Shown one piece after another: positions 2,386 through 8,820 of a stretch of DNA of 13,032 nt (position 1 is the first letter of the stretch; every line of letters begins with the position of its first letter). The position numbers and the translations under genes were made by a program. The notes beneath the pieces were generated by a model, which saw only the letters and a program-made list of their open reading frames with translations, was not told where the DNA came from and made no database searches. Source of the stretch: Christensenella sp. UBA7707 (GTDB lineage Bacteria; Bacillota; Clostridia; Christensenellales; CAG-138); assembly GCA_002482435.1 (NCBI GenBank), contig DLFZ01000220.1:12317-25348 (forward strand). The letters are read 5' to 3'.

Positions 2386-2414
2386 TTGACAACCCTTGAT
2401 TCCAGTATTATAAT
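2386..2414 (+). promoter_or_regulatory. Consensus promoter of the rex1-lysR operon
   Basis: A perfect TTGACA (2386-2391) and a perfect TATAAT (2409-2414) are separated by exactly 17 bp. Expected transcription starts near 2421, giving a leader of about 50 nt before the rex1 ATG. An unregulated promoter this good would be very strong, and the palindrome over its -10 box implies repression. Confidence 0.85.
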
Positions 2415-2430
2415 ATCGATATTGCAATAC
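2405..2430. promoter_or_regulatory. 26-bp palindrome over the -10 box of rex1: candidate operator
   Basis: The two 12-base arms GTATTATAATAT and ATATTGCAATAC flank a central CG and are inverted repeats at 10 of 12 positions. The site covers the -10 box and the predicted start of transcription, the usual position of a repressor site. Its centre, ATATCGATAT (2413-2422), recurs twice before the adh gene. It does not match the usual clostridial Rex consensus. The binder could be Rex1, the co-transcribed LysR protein or something else. Confidence 0.6.
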
Positions 2431-2469
2431 TGAATTTTTTATAGAATATGCGCGAGGGGGTCAAAAAAC

Positions 2470-3123
2470 ATGGTCGTTCTTTCGCCGCAGGCGCTTCAGC
2501 GCATGCCATATTATTTACAATACTTAAAGTCGCTTAGCGCCTGTGGTACAGCGGTAATTGCTGCCCCCGCCGTCGCGGAAGCAATGCGCCTGAACGAAGT
2601 ACAGGTGCGAAAGGACTTTGCTGCCGTAAGTCCTTCGAAGGGCAAACCCAAAACGGGGTTTGTGGTGACGGAATTGATTGCGAACATGGAGGGAATTTTA
2701 GGCTATCATAACACCAAAGACGCCGTGCTTGTGGGCGCGGGCTCGCTTGGGAAGGCCCTGCTTTCTTACCGAGGGTTTCAAAGTTACGGGCTTCGCATCC
2801 TCGCCGCGTTCGACGTGGATGAGCGCATCGTCGGAACGCAGATCGAAAACAAGCCGGTTTTTTCGGTAAACAAGCTTGGTGAACTGTGTGAAAGGCTTCG
2901 AGTACAGATCGGCATCATTGCGGTTCCAGATCGTGAAGCCCAACGCGTTTGCGATGCACTGGTGCAAAGCGGCATACGAGCCGTTTGGAACTTTGCACCC
3001 GTCCACTTAACCGCACCAAAGGATATTTTTATCAAAAACGAAAACATGGCCGCCTCGCTCGCGGTGCTCTCCAATTATCTGGAAGCAGGTGCGGCAGGCG
3101 TTACGGAGGAAAGCAAACCTTGA
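2470..3123 (+). CDS. rex: Redox-sensing repressor Rex, divergent paralogue 1 (217 aa)
   Basis: Rex proteins are dimeric repressors that leave DNA when NADH is high and so derepress NADH-consuming pathways. The N-terminal winged helix (about 10-65) contains NEVQVRKDF at 42-50, matching the AAQVRKDL recognition helix of the family. The Rossmann domain has GAGSLG at 89-94 and the acidic AAFDVDE at 112-118. The C-terminal helix (NENMAASLAVLSNYL, 190-204) corresponds to the domain-swap helix. Length is typical (about 210). After QVRKD the usual loop LSYFGEFGxRGVGY is replaced by FAAVSPSKGKPKTGF, so the minor-groove contact region is atypical. ATG 2470 follows a GAGGGGG ribosome site at 2454-2460. 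The gene overlaps lysR by four bases (TTGA). Rex identity is secure; target specificity is not. Confidence 0.93.
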   Translation: MVVLSPQALQRMPYYLQYLKSLSACGTAVIAAPAVAEAMRLNEVQVRKDFAAVSPSKGKPKTGFVVTELIANMEGILGYHNTKDAVLVGAGSLGKALLSYRGFQSYGLRILAAFDVDERIVGTQIENKPVFSVNKLGELCERLRVQIGIIAVPDREAQRVCDALVQSGIRAVWNFAPVHLTAPKDIFIKNENMAASLAVLSNYLEAGAAGVTEESKP

Positions 3124-4058
3124 ACACACTGCATTTAAAATATGCCGTAGAAGTGGAAAAAACGCGTTCCATTTCACAGGCTGCGGAAAACCTGTACATG
3201 GCACAGCCCAACCTGAGCAAGGCCATCAAGGAACTTGAGGACTCCTTGGGTATTACGATCTTTGAGCGTTCCGCGCGCGGCGTCGCACCAACCAAAAAAG
3301 GAGCAGAGTTTTTGGTCTACGCCAGAGACATTTTGCGTCAGATCGATAAAATGGAAGGTCTTTCCGTCCCAGAAAACGACGAGCGGCAGGCCTTTCGTAT
3401 TTCCATGCCGCGTGGCAGTTACATTGCCCGCGCGTTTACAAACTTTGTAGCGGAGCTTGATGCGCAGAAGGAAATTGATGTGAGCGTGCAAGAAACCAAC
3501 TCCATGCAAGCTATCGCAAACGTGGCGGAGCACAGGCACGGACTTGGGATCATTCGCTACCCGACGGATTATGAAAACTACTTTCTCGACTACTTGCACG
3601 AAAAAAAGCTTTTGCACGAACCGATTTGGGAATTCGAATATCTCGCGGTAATGTCAAAAGCGCACCCTTTGGCAAGCGTGCCCGAGGTGCAGTACGCGAA
3701 ACTGAGCAAATTTGTGGAGATTACACACGGTGACAACATCGTTCCCTACCTCAGTGCGCGCACAGCTTCAAATTCGAGCGTTAGCGCAAAAACCAAACGG
3801 AAAATTTATGTGTACGAACGTTGCAGCCAGTTCGATATGCTTTCCAACATCCCCTCCACGTATATGTGGGTGTCACCCATTCCGGAGGAGTTTCTTTCCC
3901 TCTACGGGCTCGTGCAGCGCAAGTGCAGCGGCGCGCACCACAAATATAAGGATGCGCTTATTTACGAGGAAGGCTACCGCCTTTCACAACTGGACGAACG
4001 GTTCTTAAAAAAGCTGTACGAGTCAAAAGACAAAGTGTCTCAAAAGGTATATACATAA
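3120..4058 (+). CDS. LysR-type transcriptional regulator (312 aa), TTG start
   Basis: The N-terminal winged helix-turn-helix is clear: MNTLHLKYAVEVEKTRSISQ then AAENLYMAQPNLSKAIKELE, with the helix-turn-helix at about 18-37 and SLGITIFERSARGVAPTKKG at 42-61. A linker helix to about residue 80 and a LysR substrate-binding domain (about 91-300) follow. The open frame extends upstream into rex1, but family alignment begins at the TTG at 3120, which overlaps the rex1 TGA as TTGA and has GGAGG at 3105-3109. The ligand is unknown. Because it shares an operon with Rex1 and precedes an alcohol dehydrogenase, it plausibly controls the adh promoter and/or its own operon through the ATATCGATAT palindromes; that is inference. 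Length is normal for the family (about 300). Confidence 0.92.
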   Translation: MNTLHLKYAVEVEKTRSISQAAENLYMAQPNLSKAIKELEDSLGITIFERSARGVAPTKKGAEFLVYARDILRQIDKMEGLSVPENDERQAFRISMPRGSYIARAFTNFVAELDAQKEIDVSVQETNSMQAIANVAEHRHGLGIIRYPTDYENYFLDYLHEKKLLHEPIWEFEYLAVMSKAHPLASVPEVQYAKLSKFVEITHGDNIVPYLSARTASNSSVSAKTKRKIYVYERCSQFDMLSNIPSTYMWVSPIPEEFLSLYGLVQRKCSGAHHKYKDALIYEEGYRLSQLDERFLKKLYESKDKVSQKVYT

Positions 4059-4088
4059 CGTACATTCCTCAAATCGTCTCGTTCCAAT

Positions 4089-4133
4089 ACCGGCATATCG
4101 ATATTTATATATCGATATGCCGGTTTTATATTT
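4089..4133 (+). terminator. Strong hairpin after lysR: terminator, with two copies of ATATCGATAT
   Basis: ACCGGCATATCGATAT (4089-4104) is a perfect 16-bp inverted repeat of 4109-4124, separated by the loop TTAT. TTTTATATTT follows, so it fits an intrinsic terminator for rex1-lysR. Each arm contains the self-complementary decamer ATATCGATAT (4095-4104 and 4109-4118), the same decamer that lies at the centre of the rex1 promoter palindrome. It may therefore also act as a double DNA-binding site just upstream of the adh promoter. Confidence 0.75.
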
Positions 4134-4160
4134 CTCAACAAAGCGCGCGATTGTTAAGAT
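4132..4160 (+). promoter_or_regulatory. Probable promoter of adh (extended -10)
   Basis: TTCTCA (4132-4137), a 17-bp spacer and TAAGAT (4155-4160) make a moderate promoter, helped by a TGn element (TGT, 4152-4154) immediately before the -10. It starts just after the lysR terminator stem. Expected transcription starts near 4167, about 40 nt before the adh ATG. The Rex-type operator lies directly over the -10 box. Confidence 0.5.
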
Positions 4161-4168
4161 GGTAACAA
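4151..4168. promoter_or_regulatory. Rex operator (ROP) upstream of adh
   Basis: The 18-mer TTGTTAAGATGGTAACAA matches the clostridial Rex consensus TTGTTAANNNNTTAACAA at 13 of 14 fixed positions; the single deviation is G in place of the first T of the right arm. It covers the predicted -10 and start of transcription of adh, so bound Rex would block initiation and high NADH would release it. The consensus is quoted from memory. Confidence 0.8.
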
Positions 4169-4207: not shown

Positions 4208-5398
4208 ATGGCACGCTTTACATTACCGAGGGATTTGTACCACGGAAAAGGCGCAATCGACGCGCTCAAAACGCTCAAAGGAAAGCGGGCGTTCGTGGTG
4301 GTTGGCGGCGGAAGCATGAAACGCTTCGGCTTTTTGGATAAGGTAACGCAAAACCTGAAGGATGCCGGCATGGAAGTCCGCCTGTTTGAGGGCGTGGAGC
4401 CCGACCCTTCCGTGGAAACAGTGATGAAGGGCGCGGCCGAAATGCGCGCGTTTGAGCCGGATTGGATCGTTTCCATTGGCGGCGGCTCGCCCATCGACGC
4501 GGCAAAAGCCATGTGGGCGTTTTACGAATACCCCGAAACCACGTTTGAAGCGCTTTGCATCCCCTTCAACTTCCCTGCCCTTCGTACCAAGGCCCGTTTT
4601 TGCGCCATTCCTTCCACCTCCGGCACCGCGACCGAGGTAACGGCGTTTTCGGTGATTACCGACTACGCAAAGGGCGTAAAGTACCCGCTGGCTGATTTCA
4701 ACATTACGCCGGATGTGGCGATCGTTGACCCCGACCTTGCTGAAACCATGCCCCAAAAGCTTACCGCGCACACCGGCATGGACGCCATGACGCACGCCAT
4801 TGAGGCCTATGTTTCCACGCTGCATTGCAACTATACAGACCCGCTGGCGCTCCACGCAATTGAGATGATCAGCCGCTATCTCATCCCTTCCTACAACGGC
4901 GACATGGACGCGCGTGCAAAAATGCACGATGCACAGTGCCTTGCGGGTATGGCTTTTTCCAATGCGCTGTTAGGCATCGTCCACTCGATGGCGCACAAAA
5001 CCGGTGCCGCTTACACGGGCGGGCATATCGTACACGGCTGCGCCAACGCCATGTACCTGCCAAAGGTGATCCGTTTCAATGCCAAAGAGCAGGAAGCCGC
5101 GGAGCGTTACGCTAAGATCTCCCGCTTTTTGCACCTGAAGGGCGACAGTGTTTCAGAGCTTGTGGATGCGCTCATCGCGCACATCAACGGCCTCAACCGC
5201 ATGCTCGAAATTCCCTCCTGCATCAAGGAATATGAGGGCGGCATCATCGACGAAAGGGAATTTCTTGAAAAGCTTCCAAAGGTTGCCGAGCTTGCCGTAG
5301 GCGACGCGTGCACCGGCTCCAACCCCAGGCAGATTGTGCCGGAGCAGATGGAAAAGCTTTTGCGGTGCTGCTACTACGACACTGAAGTGGATTTTTAA
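4208..5398 (+). CDS. Iron-containing (group III) alcohol dehydrogenase (396 aa)
   Basis: Cytoplasmic NAD(P)H-dependent reduction of an aldehyde such as acetaldehyde or butyraldehyde to the alcohol. The N-terminal nucleotide-binding half contains VVGGGSMKRFG (31-41), VEPDPS (63-68) and the family motif GGGSPIDAAK (91-100). The C-terminal half supplies the expected metal ligands: Asp192 and His196 in GMDAMTHAIEAY, His259 in GIVHSMAH, and a fourth His in GGHIVHG (His276 by alignment, possibly His273). Length is usual for the family. ATG 4208 follows GGAGG at 4196-4200. It shares many blocks with the C-terminal half of the AdhE downstream (VEPDP, MRAF, VKYPLAD), so it is a stand-alone paralogue of that domain. 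It sits behind a Rex operator, implying induction at high NADH. Substrate and cofactor choice (NADH or NADPH) cannot be read from the sequence. Confidence 0.95.
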   Translation: MARFTLPRDLYHGKGAIDALKTLKGKRAFVVVGGGSMKRFGFLDKVTQNLKDAGMEVRLFEGVEPDPSVETVMKGAAEMRAFEPDWIVSIGGGSPIDAAKAMWAFYEYPETTFEALCIPFNFPALRTKARFCAIPSTSGTATEVTAFSVITDYAKGVKYPLADFNITPDVAIVDPDLAETMPQKLTAHTGMDAMTHAIEAYVSTLHCNYTDPLALHAIEMISRYLIPSYNGDMDARAKMHDAQCLAGMAFSNALLGIVHSMAHKTGAAYTGGHIVHGCANAMYLPKVIRFNAKEQEAAERYAKISRFLHLKGDSVSELVDALIAHINGLNRMLEIPSCIKEYEGGIIDEREFLEKLPKVAELAVGDACTGSNPRQIVPEQMEKLLRCCYYDTEVDF

Positions 5399-5411: not shown

Positions 5412-5449
5412 AAAAGCCGGCTGTCAAAATCTACGGCAGCCGGCTTTTT
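5412..5449 (+). terminator. Intrinsic terminator or attenuator between adh and rex2
   Basis: AAAAGCCGGCTG (5412-5423) pairs perfectly over 12 bp with CAGCCGGCTTTT (5437-5448), with a 13-base loop and a run of five T at 5445-5449. It begins 14 bases after the adh stop. No convincing promoter is seen in the 43 bases before rex2, so part of the transcription of the downstream genes may be read-through of this hairpin. Confidence 0.8.
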
Positions 5450-5492: not shown

Positions 5493-6134
5493 ATGCAACC
5501 GTCGTCCATCCCGCTGCAAACCCTCAAACGCCTACCCCTTTATGTAAAGTACCTCAAGTCTCTGCCGCAAAACGGCGCGCTCAACATTTCCGCAACCGCC
5601 ATTGCCGAGGCGCTCAGCCTCAACAGTGTGCAGGTGCGAAAAGACCTCGCGCTTGTTTCAAGCGGTGGCCGCCCAAGGATCGGCTACATCACGCAAGATC
5701 TTTTGTTTGACATTGAACAGTATCTGGGCTATGGCGATACGCGAAGCGCCGTGCTCGTGGGCACCGGAAACCTCGGAAAAGCGCTTCTTTCCTACAAAGG
5801 CTTTTCCCAGTACGGCCTAGAGATTGTAGCGGCGTTCGATACCGATCCAACCCTTGCAGGCACGTTCGTACACGGCACGCGGGTGCTCAACGCGCAGAAG
5901 CTTTCTGATTTGTGCAAGCGCATGAACATCCGCACTGGCATCATCACCGTGCCGGAATCCGCCGCGCAGCGCGTATGCGACACGCTTGTGGAAAGCGGCG
6001 TGCTCGCCATATGGAACTTTGCCCCCACCAAGTTGAAGGTGCCTCAAAACGTACTCGTACTCAACGAAAACATGGCAAGCTCGCTTGCGGTGCTAAGCAA
6101 GCATCTTAACGAGCAGCTTTATGAAGCAAAGTAA
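5493..6134 (+). CDS. rex: Redox-sensing repressor Rex, divergent paralogue 2 (213 aa)
   Basis: Second NADH-responsive Rex. The winged helix (about 10-65) has LSLNSVQVRKDLALVSSGGR at 41-60. The Rossmann motif is GTGNLG (90-95) and the acidic dinucleotide-contact strand is IVAAFDTDP (111-119). The C-terminal swap helix is NENMASSLAVLSKHL (191-205). Like Rex1 it lacks the canonical FGEFG segment after the recognition helix; the loop here is one residue shorter than in Rex1. The open frame runs upstream into adh and the terminator, but ATG 5493 has AAAGGAG at 5479-5485 and starts where the family starts. Its stop overlaps the ribosome site of adhE, so the two are tightly coupled. It probably controls adhE and the hydrogenase genes, though no operator is visible directly before it. 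Confidence 0.93.
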   Translation: MQPSSIPLQTLKRLPLYVKYLKSLPQNGALNISATAIAEALSLNSVQVRKDLALVSSGGRPRIGYITQDLLFDIEQYLGYGDTRSAVLVGTGNLGKALLSYKGFSQYGLEIVAAFDTDPTLAGTFVHGTRVLNAQKLSDLCKRMNIRTGIITVPESAAQRVCDTLVESGVLAIWNFAPTKLKVPQNVLVLNENMASSLAVLSKHLNEQLYEAK

Positions 6135-6144
6135 GGAGAGCGAT

Positions 6145-8820
6145 ATGAGAAACATGCAGCTTGTTACAGGCAACAAAACCGTGGAAACCGTGGATGCACT
6201 CGAAAAGGCCTTTGAACGGCTCGAAACCGCGCAGCGCATTTTTTCCGGCTACACCCAGCAGCAGGTGGATAAAATTTTTGCCGCGGCCGCCGCAGCGGCT
6301 GCACATGAGCGCATCCGCCTTGCAAAGCTCGCCGTAGAGGAAACCGGTATGGGCGTGGCAGAGGACAAGGTCATCAAAAACCATTTTGCCTCGGAATACA
6401 TCTACAACGCTTATAAAAACGAAAAAACCTGCGGCATCATCGAAGAGGATGCAGCTTTTGGCGTTCAAAAAGTCGCGGAACCCGTGGGCACCATCACCGC
6501 CGTCATCCCCACCACCAACCCGACCTCCACGGTAATTTTCAAAACCCTGCTGGCACTCAAGACCCGAAACGGCATCATGGTTTGCCCGCACCCGCGCGCA
6601 AAGGCATGCACCGCGGCGGCAGCACGAGTCGTGCTGGAAGCTGCCGTAAAGGCGGGCGCGCCTGCGGGTATTATCGCGTGGATCGACGCGCCCTCGTTGG
6701 AGCTTACGGATCTCGCCATGAAAAGGGCCAATCTCATCCTTGCGACCGGCGGCCCCGGCATGGTGAAGGCCGCCTATTCAAGCGGCAAACCCGCGCTTGG
6801 CGTAGGCGCCGGCAACACCCCCGCACTCATCGACGAGAGCGCGGATGTTATGTTGGCGGTCAATTCCATCATCCATTCAAAAACCTTTGACAACGGCATG
6901 ATCTGTGCCTCCGAGCAATCGGTCGTCGTATGCTCAGGCGTCTACGACGCCGCAAAAAAAGAGTTTTCCGCGCGTGGATGCTATTTTTTGAACGCCGTGG
7001 AAACCGAAAAGCTCCGTAAGGTTATTCTTGTAAACGGCGCGCTCAACGCGAAGATCGTTGGACAAAGTGCGCATACCATTGCGGCGCTTGCGGATGTGAA
7101 CGTTCCCAAAGAAACGAAAATCCTCATCGGCGAGGTGGAAAGCGTTGCGTTGAGCGAGCCCTTTGCCCACGAAAAGCTCTCACCGGTGCTCGCCATGTAC
7201 CGCGCCAAAACCTTTTCCGATGCGCTCGGCAAGGCCGAAAAACTCATTGCGGACGGCGGCTACGGGCATACTGCGTGCGTTTATTTGAACACCGTCACCG
7301 AAAAAGCAAAACTGGACGAATTCGTTTCGCGCATGAAAACCTGCCGCATTCTCGTCAACACACCCTCCTCACACGGAGCGATCGGGGACCTCTACAACTT
7401 CAAGCTCGCTCCCTCACTCACGCTCGGGTGCGGCTCGTGGGGCGGCAATTCGGTTTCCGAAAACGTTGGCGTGAAGCACCTTTTGAACATCAAAACCGTT
7501 GCTGACCGGCGCGAAAACATGCTATGGTTCCGCGCACCCGAAAAAGTCTACATCAAAAAAGGCTGCCTTGGGGTTGCGCTCGATGAGTTGAAAACCTTGC
7601 TTGGTAAAAAGAAGGCCTTTATCGTGACCGACTCGTTCCTTTATCACAACGGTTACACGAAGCCTGTCACAAAAAAACTGGACGAAATGGGATTACGGCA
7701 CGTCACATTTTTTGACGTAGAGCCGGACCCCACCCTCGACTGCGCCAAAGCGGGCGCCGAAGAAATGCGCGCTTTCGCTCCGGATGTGATCATTGCAGTA
7801 GGCGGCGGCTCTGCCATGGACGCAGCGAAGATTATGTGGGTGCTTTACGAACACCCCGAAGTGGACTTTATGGATATGGCGATGCGTTTTTCCGACATCC
7901 GCAAACGTATTTACGCTTTCCCGAAAATGGGTGAAAAGGCGTATTTCATCGCTGTGCCCACCACGGCGGGCACCGGTTCGGAGGTAACGCCGTTTGCTGT
8001 GATTACCGACGGAGAAACCGGCGTGAAATATCCGCTCGCCGATTATGAGCTGATGCCCAAAATGGCAATTGTGGATGCGGACATGATGATGGATGCACCG
8101 AAGGGGCTTACGGCTGCCTCCGGCATCGATGCGCTGACACATGCGCTCGAAGCGTACGCCTCCATGCTCGCGACAGACTATACCGACGCGATGGCGCTCA
8201 AGGCGCTCAAAGTGATTTTTGAATACCTGCCCCGCGCCTACGATAACGGCGCGAACGACCCCTTGGCGCGTGAAAAGATGGCCAACGCCGCAACGATGGC
8301 GGGCATGGCCTTTGCAAACGCATTCTTAGGCATCTGCCATTCCATGGCGCACAAGCTTGGGGCCTTTCACCACCTGCCCCACGGCGTGGCGAACGCGTTG
8401 ATGATTGCTGAGGTAATACGCTTCAATGCCTCCGAAACGCCCGCAAAAATGGGCACTTTCCCGCAATACGGCTACCCGCATACCCTCGAAAGATACGCTC
8501 AGATCGCGGATTATCTGGGCCTTGGCGGAAAGACGAACGCGGAGAAGCTTGAAAGCCTGATTGCGGCTGTCGAAGCGCTCAAGCAAAAGGTCGGCATCAA
8601 GAAAACCATAAAGGAGTACGGCATTGAGGAAGCCGCGTTCAGCAGCCGCCTTGATGAGATGGTGGAACAGGCGTTCGACGACCAGTGTACCGGCGCGAAC
8701 CCGCGCTACCCGCTGTTTAAAGAACTACGCGAAATGTACCAAAACGCCTACTACGGCAGGCGGGAAACCACCAGCGCGCAAGCACCGCGCGAAGATGCGC
8801 TCAGGAGGGTAAACGAATGA
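6145..8820 (+). CDS. adhE: Bifunctional aldehyde-alcohol dehydrogenase AdhE (891 aa)
   Basis: Converts acetyl-CoA to acetaldehyde and then ethanol, using two NADH; AdhE characteristically assembles into helical filaments (spirosomes). The N-terminal CoA-acylating aldehyde dehydrogenase (about 10-430) has IPTTNPTSTVIFK, the nucleotide motif GVGAGN (219-224) and the catalytic Cys254 in ICASEQS. A linker (about 440-470) leads to the iron-type alcohol dehydrogenase, with GGGSAMDAAK (553-562) and metal ligands Asp662 and His666 (GIDALTHALEAY), His732 (ICHSMAH) and His746 (PHGVAN). All expected residues are present and the length is normal (about 870-900). An upstream in-frame ATG at 6121 lies inside rex2; ATG 6145 is chosen because AAGGAG (6133-6138) precedes it by six bases. 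Its stop overlaps the next gene as ATGA. Confidence 0.97.
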   Translation: MRNMQLVTGNKTVETVDALEKAFERLETAQRIFSGYTQQQVDKIFAAAAAAAAHERIRLAKLAVEETGMGVAEDKVIKNHFASEYIYNAYKNEKTCGIIEEDAAFGVQKVAEPVGTITAVIPTTNPTSTVIFKTLLALKTRNGIMVCPHPRAKACTAAAARVVLEAAVKAGAPAGIIAWIDAPSLELTDLAMKRANLILATGGPGMVKAAYSSGKPALGVGAGNTPALIDESADVMLAVNSIIHSKTFDNGMICASEQSVVVCSGVYDAAKKEFSARGCYFLNAVETEKLRKVILVNGALNAKIVGQSAHTIAALADVNVPKETKILIGEVESVALSEPFAHEKLSPVLAMYRAKTFSDALGKAEKLIADGGYGHTACVYLNTVTEKAKLDEFVSRMKTCRILVNTPSSHGAIGDLYNFKLAPSLTLGCGSWGGNSVSENVGVKHLLNIKTVADRRENMLWFRAPEKVYIKKGCLGVALDELKTLLGKKKAFIVTDSFLYHNGYTKPVTKKLDEMGLRHVTFFDVEPDPTLDCAKAGAEEMRAFAPDVIIAVGGGSAMDAAKIMWVLYEHPEVDFMDMAMRFSDIRKRIYAFPKMGEKAYFIAVPTTAGTGSEVTPFAVITDGETGVKYPLADYELMPKMAIVDADMMMDAPKGLTAASGIDALTHALEAYASMLATDYTDAMALKALKVIFEYLPRAYDNGANDPLAREKMANAATMAGMAFANAFLGICHSMAHKLGAFHHLPHGVANALMIAEVIRFNASETPAKMGTFPQYGYPHTLERYAQIADYLGLGGKTNAEKLESLIAAVEALKQKVGIKKTIKEYGIEEAAFSSRLDEMVEQAFDDQCTGANPRYPLFKELREMYQNAYYGRRETTSAQAPREDALRRVNE

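Follow-up and report, generated by a model that had tools for sequence, protein, structure and literature searches.

The classical operator of the repressor Rex, which senses reduced nicotinamide adenine dinucleotide (NADH), is given as TTGTGAANNNNTTCACAA or TTGTTAANNNNTTAACAA and called the Rex operator, or ROP (PMC6391272, PMC8457756). The structure of Thermotoga maritima Rex on DNA has Arg48 reading G5 and Lys49 reading G7/A8, while Arg60-Gly61 of the wing touch the outer T4 and T3 in the minor groove (PMC8836258). Clostridium thermocellum has, beside its standard Rex, a second one (Rex_1799, the Cthe_0422 homolog) that is 34-36% identical to characterised clostridial Rex (PMC8457756). The string TATCGATA, which is central to what follows, also lies within a listed site before ppdK that is unrelated to Rex (PMC3146418). 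We analysed a stretch of 13,032 nucleotides from Christensenella sp. UBA7707 ("the window"), with the gene order rex1-lysR, adh, rex2, adhE and [FeFe]-hydrogenase-type genes, in which a palindromic decamer, ATATCGATAT, stands before rex1 and before adh. This decamer belongs to an element that is found repeatedly, with a regular spacing, in company with rex genes of a divergent type. We consider it likely, judging from sequence comparison, that the decamer is the core of a putative operator read by this divergent and little-studied branch of Rex, to which both Rex1 and Rex2 belong and which would thereby regulate its own gene together with genes for alcohol and hydrogen fermentation in many anaerobes.

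A preliminary description of the window had reported three copies of the decamer, at 2413-2422, 4095-4104 and 4109-4118; all three are exact, and the window holds no further exact copy. We would count them differently, however, because the decamer is its own reverse complement and the two copies in the arms of a hairpin are therefore one event, which leaves two independent sites, called here site A and site B. The chance level given at the time, about 0.01 copies in 13 kb, agrees with our values of 0.005 (first-order Markov) to 0.014 (second-order), computed from the composition of 43.5 kb of the source genome. At up to two mismatches there are 10 matches in the window, against a shuffle mean of 2.5, and the shuffles together with the Markov expectations lead us to reject a chance origin. 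The genome-wide count that had been proposed as a check gives 6 copies in the draft of the source genome (2.07 Mb, 68% complete), against 0.8 (first-order) to 2.2 (second-order) expected, and 3 of them are those of the window; the others lie inside open frames, C79:7477 in one of 149 codons, C136:478 in one of 224 and C234:1517 in one of 770, and the frames of C79 and C136 extend past the end of the retrieved sequence. Sites A and B are the sole strong palindromes in the window by the palindrome criterion applied, and a scan of the Rfam database at gathering thresholds returned no match.

The decamer stands within a larger element, in which TATCGATA units follow each other at a spacing of 14 base pairs (bp), start to start, and the predicted functional unit is a pair of such units (an array) rather than the single decamer. 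Other genomes, chiefly of Clostridia, also have the element in front of rex, adh, adhE and hydrogenase genes. Conservation in relatives, the lack of which had been named as a refutation of the original proposal, is seen in the same spaced units before adh, adhE and rex in related genomes. When 101 related genomes were searched for TAYYGATA-N6-TAYYGATA with at most one mismatch, many of the matches listed fell just before rex, also in genomes without a lysR ortholog.

The association with rex can be counted. Among 80 named loci (the best 80 of 568 close relatives of Rex2, mostly from Clostridia, plus Pelolinea, an Anaerolineae bin and a Deltaproteobacteria bin), 49 have TATCGATA within 300 bp upstream of rex, against 0.5 in shuffles. 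When 152 Rex proteins are sorted by wing motif into 112 divergent (wing G-[KR]-P-[KR]) and 40 standard members, TATCGATA is found at this distance before 72 of the 112 divergent rex genes and before none of the 40 standard ones. A FastTree analysis of the same 152 proteins puts the 40 standard rows on one side of a branch with a support of 99. Divergent proteins carry the helix VQVRKD in 90 of 112 cases and the wing [KR]-P-[KR] in 107; in the standard ones the helix reads SQ[VI]RQD (35 of 40) and the wing is of the QGYGY type. Few standard rex genes have a classical box reaching at least 12 of 14 positions before them, and a general carriage of that box by them was not upheld. In Acetivibrio mesophilus and A. 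straminisolvens adhE comes directly after a divergent rex that carries the array; in the draft of the latter species, adhE (L121, 4677-7256) is matched in four separate segments, which could reflect frameshifts or sequencing errors. Divergent rex genes with an upstream TATCGATA also occur in Pelolinea submarina and in the Anaerolineae and Deltaproteobacteria bins (L113, L128, L158), possibly by horizontal transfer or, for the two bins, by a binning error.

Two TATCGATA units contain an 18-bp dyad, TCGATA-N6-TATCGA. Counting dyads in which one half is exactly CGATA or TATCG and the other CRRTA or TAYYG, the 6-bp gap was observed 62 times upstream of divergent rex, against 0.2 expected, and not once upstream of the 40 standard rex genes. 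The preliminary description had held that the decamer differs from the standard Rex motif, which is correct for the bases, and neither site matches the classical operator sequence TTGTKAANNNNTTMACAA, but the 18-bp dyad geometry is kept. If the contacts of the T. maritima structure are transferred by hand to the new dyad, the contacted G and A would be kept in it, as the Arg-Lys pair is in the divergent helix, and the change of the wing from Arg-Gly to Pro-Lys or Pro-Arg (107 of 112) would coincide with the change of the second outer T of the operator to C. The data may be fitted equally by a dimer across two units and by a dimer on each unit. At the divergent rex promoters of the Oscillospiraceae loci L161, L165, L170 and L176, and of similar ones, the units are spaced by 16 instead of 14 bp.

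In the 101 genomes, an exact array was defined as TATCGATA-N5..7-TAYYGATA and Rex was typed by its wing sequence. Such an array is present in 22 of the 34 genomes with a divergent rex and in 4 of the 67 others (p = 5e-10). Where lysR is present, 14 of 18 genomes with a divergent rex have it, against 0 of 9 without one (p = 0.00015); where lysR is lacking, the figures are 8 of 16 and 4 of 58 (p = 0.00027). Within either Rex class, lysR has no significant effect on the array in this set (p = 0.15 and 1). The array is found in 11 of 19 genomes with a divergent but no detected standard Rex, so that the latter is seemingly not required, and in 3 of 25 with a standard Rex only. These exact-pattern counts are independent of our scoring matrix, which was derived from 53 arrays found before divergent rex and favours such sites; the locus and genome sets partly overlap (L130 and G120:C42 are contigs of equal length, as are L131 and G156:C214), and the counts from the 80 loci and the 101 genomes are thus not independent of each other. 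A set of 396 genomes, typed by score cut-off and not by wing, gives the array in 19 of 23 genomes with both genes, 5 of 23 with lysR only, 22 of 92 with divergent rex only and 4 of 258 with neither. Four of the five "lysR only" array genomes (G153, G244, G324, G411) have, right after the array, a rex whose wing is of the Pro-Lys type, and in the fifth (G330) the array has a 5-bp gap and is on a different contig from lysR. The element stands upstream of rex itself in many genera, and rex and lysR are adjacent in several.

The idea first put forward, that the decamer is an operator for a regulator encoded in the window, either LysR or the atypical Rex1, is well supported in its first part, and the choice that it had left open appears to fall on the atypical Rex, because the exact element with its 14-bp spacing is associated with divergent Rex, with or without lysR.

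Site A (2399-2436) is a three-unit array in 14-bp steps, made of a degenerate CCAGTAT, the exact decamer (2413-2422) and a degenerate ATACTGA. It lies on the rex1 promoter (2386-2414, + strand), which matches the consensus at 12 of 12 positions: -35 TTGACA (2386-2391), a 17-bp spacer and -10 TATAAT (2409-2414). The 26-bp palindrome previously noted over this -10 is there, although imperfect (11 of 13 pairs, or 13 of 15 if extended to 30 bp at 2403-2432), and is better seen as the three-unit array, because a degenerate unit lies 14 bp to each side of the exact decamer; in its longer form it covers the -10 and ends 37 bp 5' of the rex1 start codon. Its two array scores, 25.4 (2399-2422) and 21.0 (2413-2436), rank second and third in the window. 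The combination TTGACA..CAGTATTATAATATCGATAT is repeated before rex in L010, L012 and L014 and, slightly changed, in L011 and L013, the five loci belonging to a single related genus, and the best classical Rex box in the 300 bp before rex1 scores 10 of 14. The location of site A on a perfect promoter suggests an autorepression of rex1-lysR by a divergent Rex, relieved by NADH.

Site B (4095-4118) reads ATATCGATAT-TTAT-ATATCGATAT, the second exact decamer starting 14 bp after the first, and has the best array score of the window (36.3); it is the only mismatch-free array in the source genome. Another pattern match in that genome, C233:2418 (L008 2417-2440, G000:C233), consists of TTACTGATATAGCTCTATCAGTAA between A/T-rich flanks and was rejected, since it looks like a terminator hairpin and not like an operator. 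Site B sits in a 36-bp palindrome (4089-4124, + strand; 17 of 18 pairs) with a perfect 16-bp stem and a TTAT loop, followed by the T-rich TTTATATTTC. The hairpin folds at -26.2 kcal/mol (z -8.2) and matches a scan for terminator-like structures, matches of this kind being no more frequent in the window than in shuffles; it may double as the terminator of rex1-lysR. For adh the candidate promoter is TTCTCA-17-TAAGAT (4132-4160, + strand), whose -10 begins 48 bp from the centre of site B. With a score of 8.0 it is second to TTTATA-17-TATATT (4104-4132, 10.5), which overlaps the array; we chose it because the +48 register recurs in relatives. A LysR-like centre about 60 bp upstream of the start is found at site B only with this second-best promoter, and is not found at site A. 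A site resembling the classical Rex box, TTGTTAAGATGGTAACAA (4151-4168), lies over the adh -10 candidate and agrees at 13 of the 14 fixed positions of the consensus given in PMC8457756. The source genome also encodes a standard Rex (G000:C18, L190), and the overlap of a near-perfect classical box with the -10 candidate suggests that this standard Rex may act at adh too. Site B itself most likely gives the divergent Rex, and perhaps LysR as well, control of adh.

Placement relative to promoters was scanned with promoter weights. In 59 of 79 arrays without a lysR directly upstream, the best -10 overlaps the array or immediately precedes it, as at site A, and 50 of these 59 fall in six registers (-2, -16, -30 and -5, -19, -33). 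A second placement, with the -10 at 47 to 49 bp from the array centre, is found for 20 of 92 arrays (repeats removed), against 1.3 in flank shuffles. Among the 16 of these 92 that have lysR directly upstream, none overlaps its best promoter (3.7 in shuffles) and eight are at +47 to +49. Three LysR-only genomes (G059, G008, G025) have drifted arrays whose distance from the promoter is the same or differs by 1 bp, and LysR may for this reason also use site B; the other six have no good array at that distance, three of which (G014, G034, G045) weigh little because the stretch after their lysR looks coding. In eight genomes without a lysR ortholog (G069, G120, G146, G156, G181, G295, G346, G417) the -10 likewise stands at +47 to +49, only one unit being exact in four of these genomes, so that LysR is a plausible but not a defining user of site B. 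Away from rex, arrays stand beside the starts of, among others, adh, adhE, a thioredoxin-like ferredoxin gene and a gene resembling [FeFe]-hydrogenase, with one more start that resembles, by eye only, a ferredoxin-NADP reductase subunit; these would be the expected targets of a redox regulator of fermentation.

Could LysR alone bind the decamer, regulating itself at site A and activating adh from site B? The arrays directly after lysR speak for this, as all 16 lie clear of their best promoter and half of them stand at a usual distance for a LysR activator, and so do the drifted arrays of the three LysR-only genomes. A site of LysR should, however, be present with lysR and lost without it, and the cross-table of Rex type and lysR, with exact arrays in 0 of 9 genomes that have lysR and no divergent rex and in 8 of 16 with the opposite combination, leads us to reject LysR as the sole reader. 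With the Rex type fixed, lysR has no significant effect; G062, G067, G069 and G017 have exact arrays and no match to this LysR at E <= 1e-3; and the Pro-Lys wings found after the array account for four of the five apparent exceptions in the 396 genomes. We therefore hold this explanation to be very improbable. It is a more serious proposition, to which we would give a substantial though minor share of our belief, that both proteins read the same word, Rex repressing over promoters and LysR activating from -60, in competition at such sites. The existence of two placements (overlap in 57 of 76 arrays without lysR directly upstream and in 0 of 16 with it, next to the 20 of 92 at +47 to +49), the drifted arrays at a similar distance and the neighbouring rex and lysR genes of several genera all agree with it; against it, the eight lysR-less genomes indicate that a divergent Rex may use the distant placement alone, and the six remaining LysR-only genomes, three of them weakly informative, have no good array there.

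A third regulator, encoded elsewhere and inherited together with divergent rex, might bind the element instead. Rex binding is after all a prediction, and four genomes have exact arrays and no detected divergent rex, but the element is at rex promoters across many genera and its dyad fits Rex geometry; we think such a regulator distinctly unlikely, no search for its gene having been made. Least probable of all, in our opinion, is that site B serves rex1-lysR as an intrinsic terminator and nothing else, and resembles site A by accident. The 16-bp stem, the T-rich tail and the -26.2 kcal/mol of the hairpin would suit a terminator; yet the same word lies over a promoter at site A, several arrays of relatives have no G+C clamp, and L064, with the same rex-lysR-adh order, keeps its array although a separate terminator-like hairpin can be seen by eye upstream.

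Returning to the divergent Rex as the reader, we should list what weighs against it. For 40 of the 112 divergent rex genes the 300 bp upstream contain no TATCGATA, and only 9 of these genes closely follow another long open frame, which leaves 31 to account for; 12 of the 34 divergent-rex genomes are without the exact element. Conversely, exact arrays occur with no divergent rex detected in G020 (L231), G066 (C311), G090 (C1) and G100 (C7). Of 93 dyads with gaps of 5-8 bp, 31 have a gap other than 6, and 23 of them a gap of 8. Promoter overlap is partly to be expected (57 of 76 against 42 in shuffles, repeats removed), because an A/T-rich array helps to form a -10, and the -60 placement of site B is unusual for a repressor. 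The residue-to-base mapping was made by hand, the genomes are drafts, and related genomes are not independent. As to G020, its array precedes a hydrogenase-like gene, and a lysR fragment is on the same contig.

If a divergent Rex does read the element, a dimer of Rex1 or Rex2 bound to NAD+ would cover the -10 and the start region of rex1 at site A and shut off rex1-lysR, and rising NADH would release it. At site B, and here we are less sure, the same Rex would act on the adh promoter from about -60, as an obstacle to the co-encoded LysR activator or as its partner. The separate classical box over the adh -10 candidate might, with similar reserve, serve the standard Rex, and site B is probably the terminator of rex1-lysR as well. 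One could go further and imagine that a single word is used by two unrelated regulators from one operon: the divergent NADH-sensing Rex would repress over promoters, the co-transcribed LysR would activate from 48 bp upstream of the -10 and be displaced by Rex at alcohol dehydrogenase genes, the self-palindromic 14-bp units would let dimers bind in overlapping registers, and one operator would here be at the same time the terminator of the operon encoding both of its readers. This is a tentative picture, and as a whole we find it rather doubtful.

The genes concerned are all on the + strand. Rex1 (2470-3123), to which solved Rex structures match by sequence, has a winged helix and a Rossmann domain, with helix VQVRKD and wing GKPKTGF (NF003994, 263 bits, cut-off 130); Rex2 (5493-6134) has the same helix and the wing GRPRIGY (277 bits against the same cut-off). 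In both, PF06971 and PF02629 are above cut-off, as expected of the Rex family, and the GxGxxG nucleotide loop reads GAGSLG in Rex1 and GTGNLG in Rex2, its three glycines being invariant in nine aligned members. The Arg60-Gly61-type wing of standard members (T. maritima numbering) gives way to [KR]-P-[KR] in 107 of the 112 divergent proteins, and it is by this wing that we assign Rex1 and Rex2 to the divergent branch. The product of lysR (3120-4058) is a LysR-type regulator (PF00126, HTH_1, 66 bits; PF03466, 26.7 bits, slightly below the cut-off of 28), and since its inferred TTG start overlaps the rex1 stop codon, rex1-lysR is likely one operon. An iron-containing alcohol dehydrogenase, the presumed target of site B, is encoded by adh (4208-5398), and a bifunctional acetaldehyde/alcohol dehydrogenase by adhE (6145-8820; NF010378, 1371 bits), 3' of rex2 and in the same direction. 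Between adh and rex2 a hairpin, AAAAGCCGGCTG..CAGCCGGCTTTTT (5412-5449), looks terminator-like by eye and would separate adh from rex2-adhE.

Divergent Rex genes adjoin adhE and hydrogenase genes in many anaerobes, yet a search with the standard Rex box would overlook the sites of these proteins. With a defined operator, the regulon of the divergent Rex should become predictable, perhaps including that of the second Rex of ethanol-producing Acetivibrio, and the joint change of the wing (Arg-Gly to Pro-Lys) and of the operator (T to C) would make a clean case of altered specificity. Ravcheev et al. 2012 is reportedly the main comparative study of Rex, and an earlier mention of the operator there is possible; in the titles and abstract openings of a part of the literature on ATATCGATAT, TATCGATA and Rex paralogs we saw no sign of it.

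How, then, does the new element compare with what is already known? It shares with the classical operator its place before rex, adh(E) and hydrogenase genes, and both TTGTTAA-N4-TTAACAA and TCGATA-N6-TATCGA are 18 bp long, with the G of one half-site 13 bp from its partner C. It differs in its half-site, TCGATA and not TTGTTAA, and in the repetition of its units every 14 bp, by which neighbouring dyads overlap. LysR-type activators have sites centred near -60 to -65. Site B resembles these in where it is placed and in following lysR directly, whereas our element is also found in genomes without this LysR, and over promoters. The closest parallel on the protein side is Rex_1799, like the divergent Rex of this window a second Rex beside a standard one, and we infer that it belongs to the same divergent branch.

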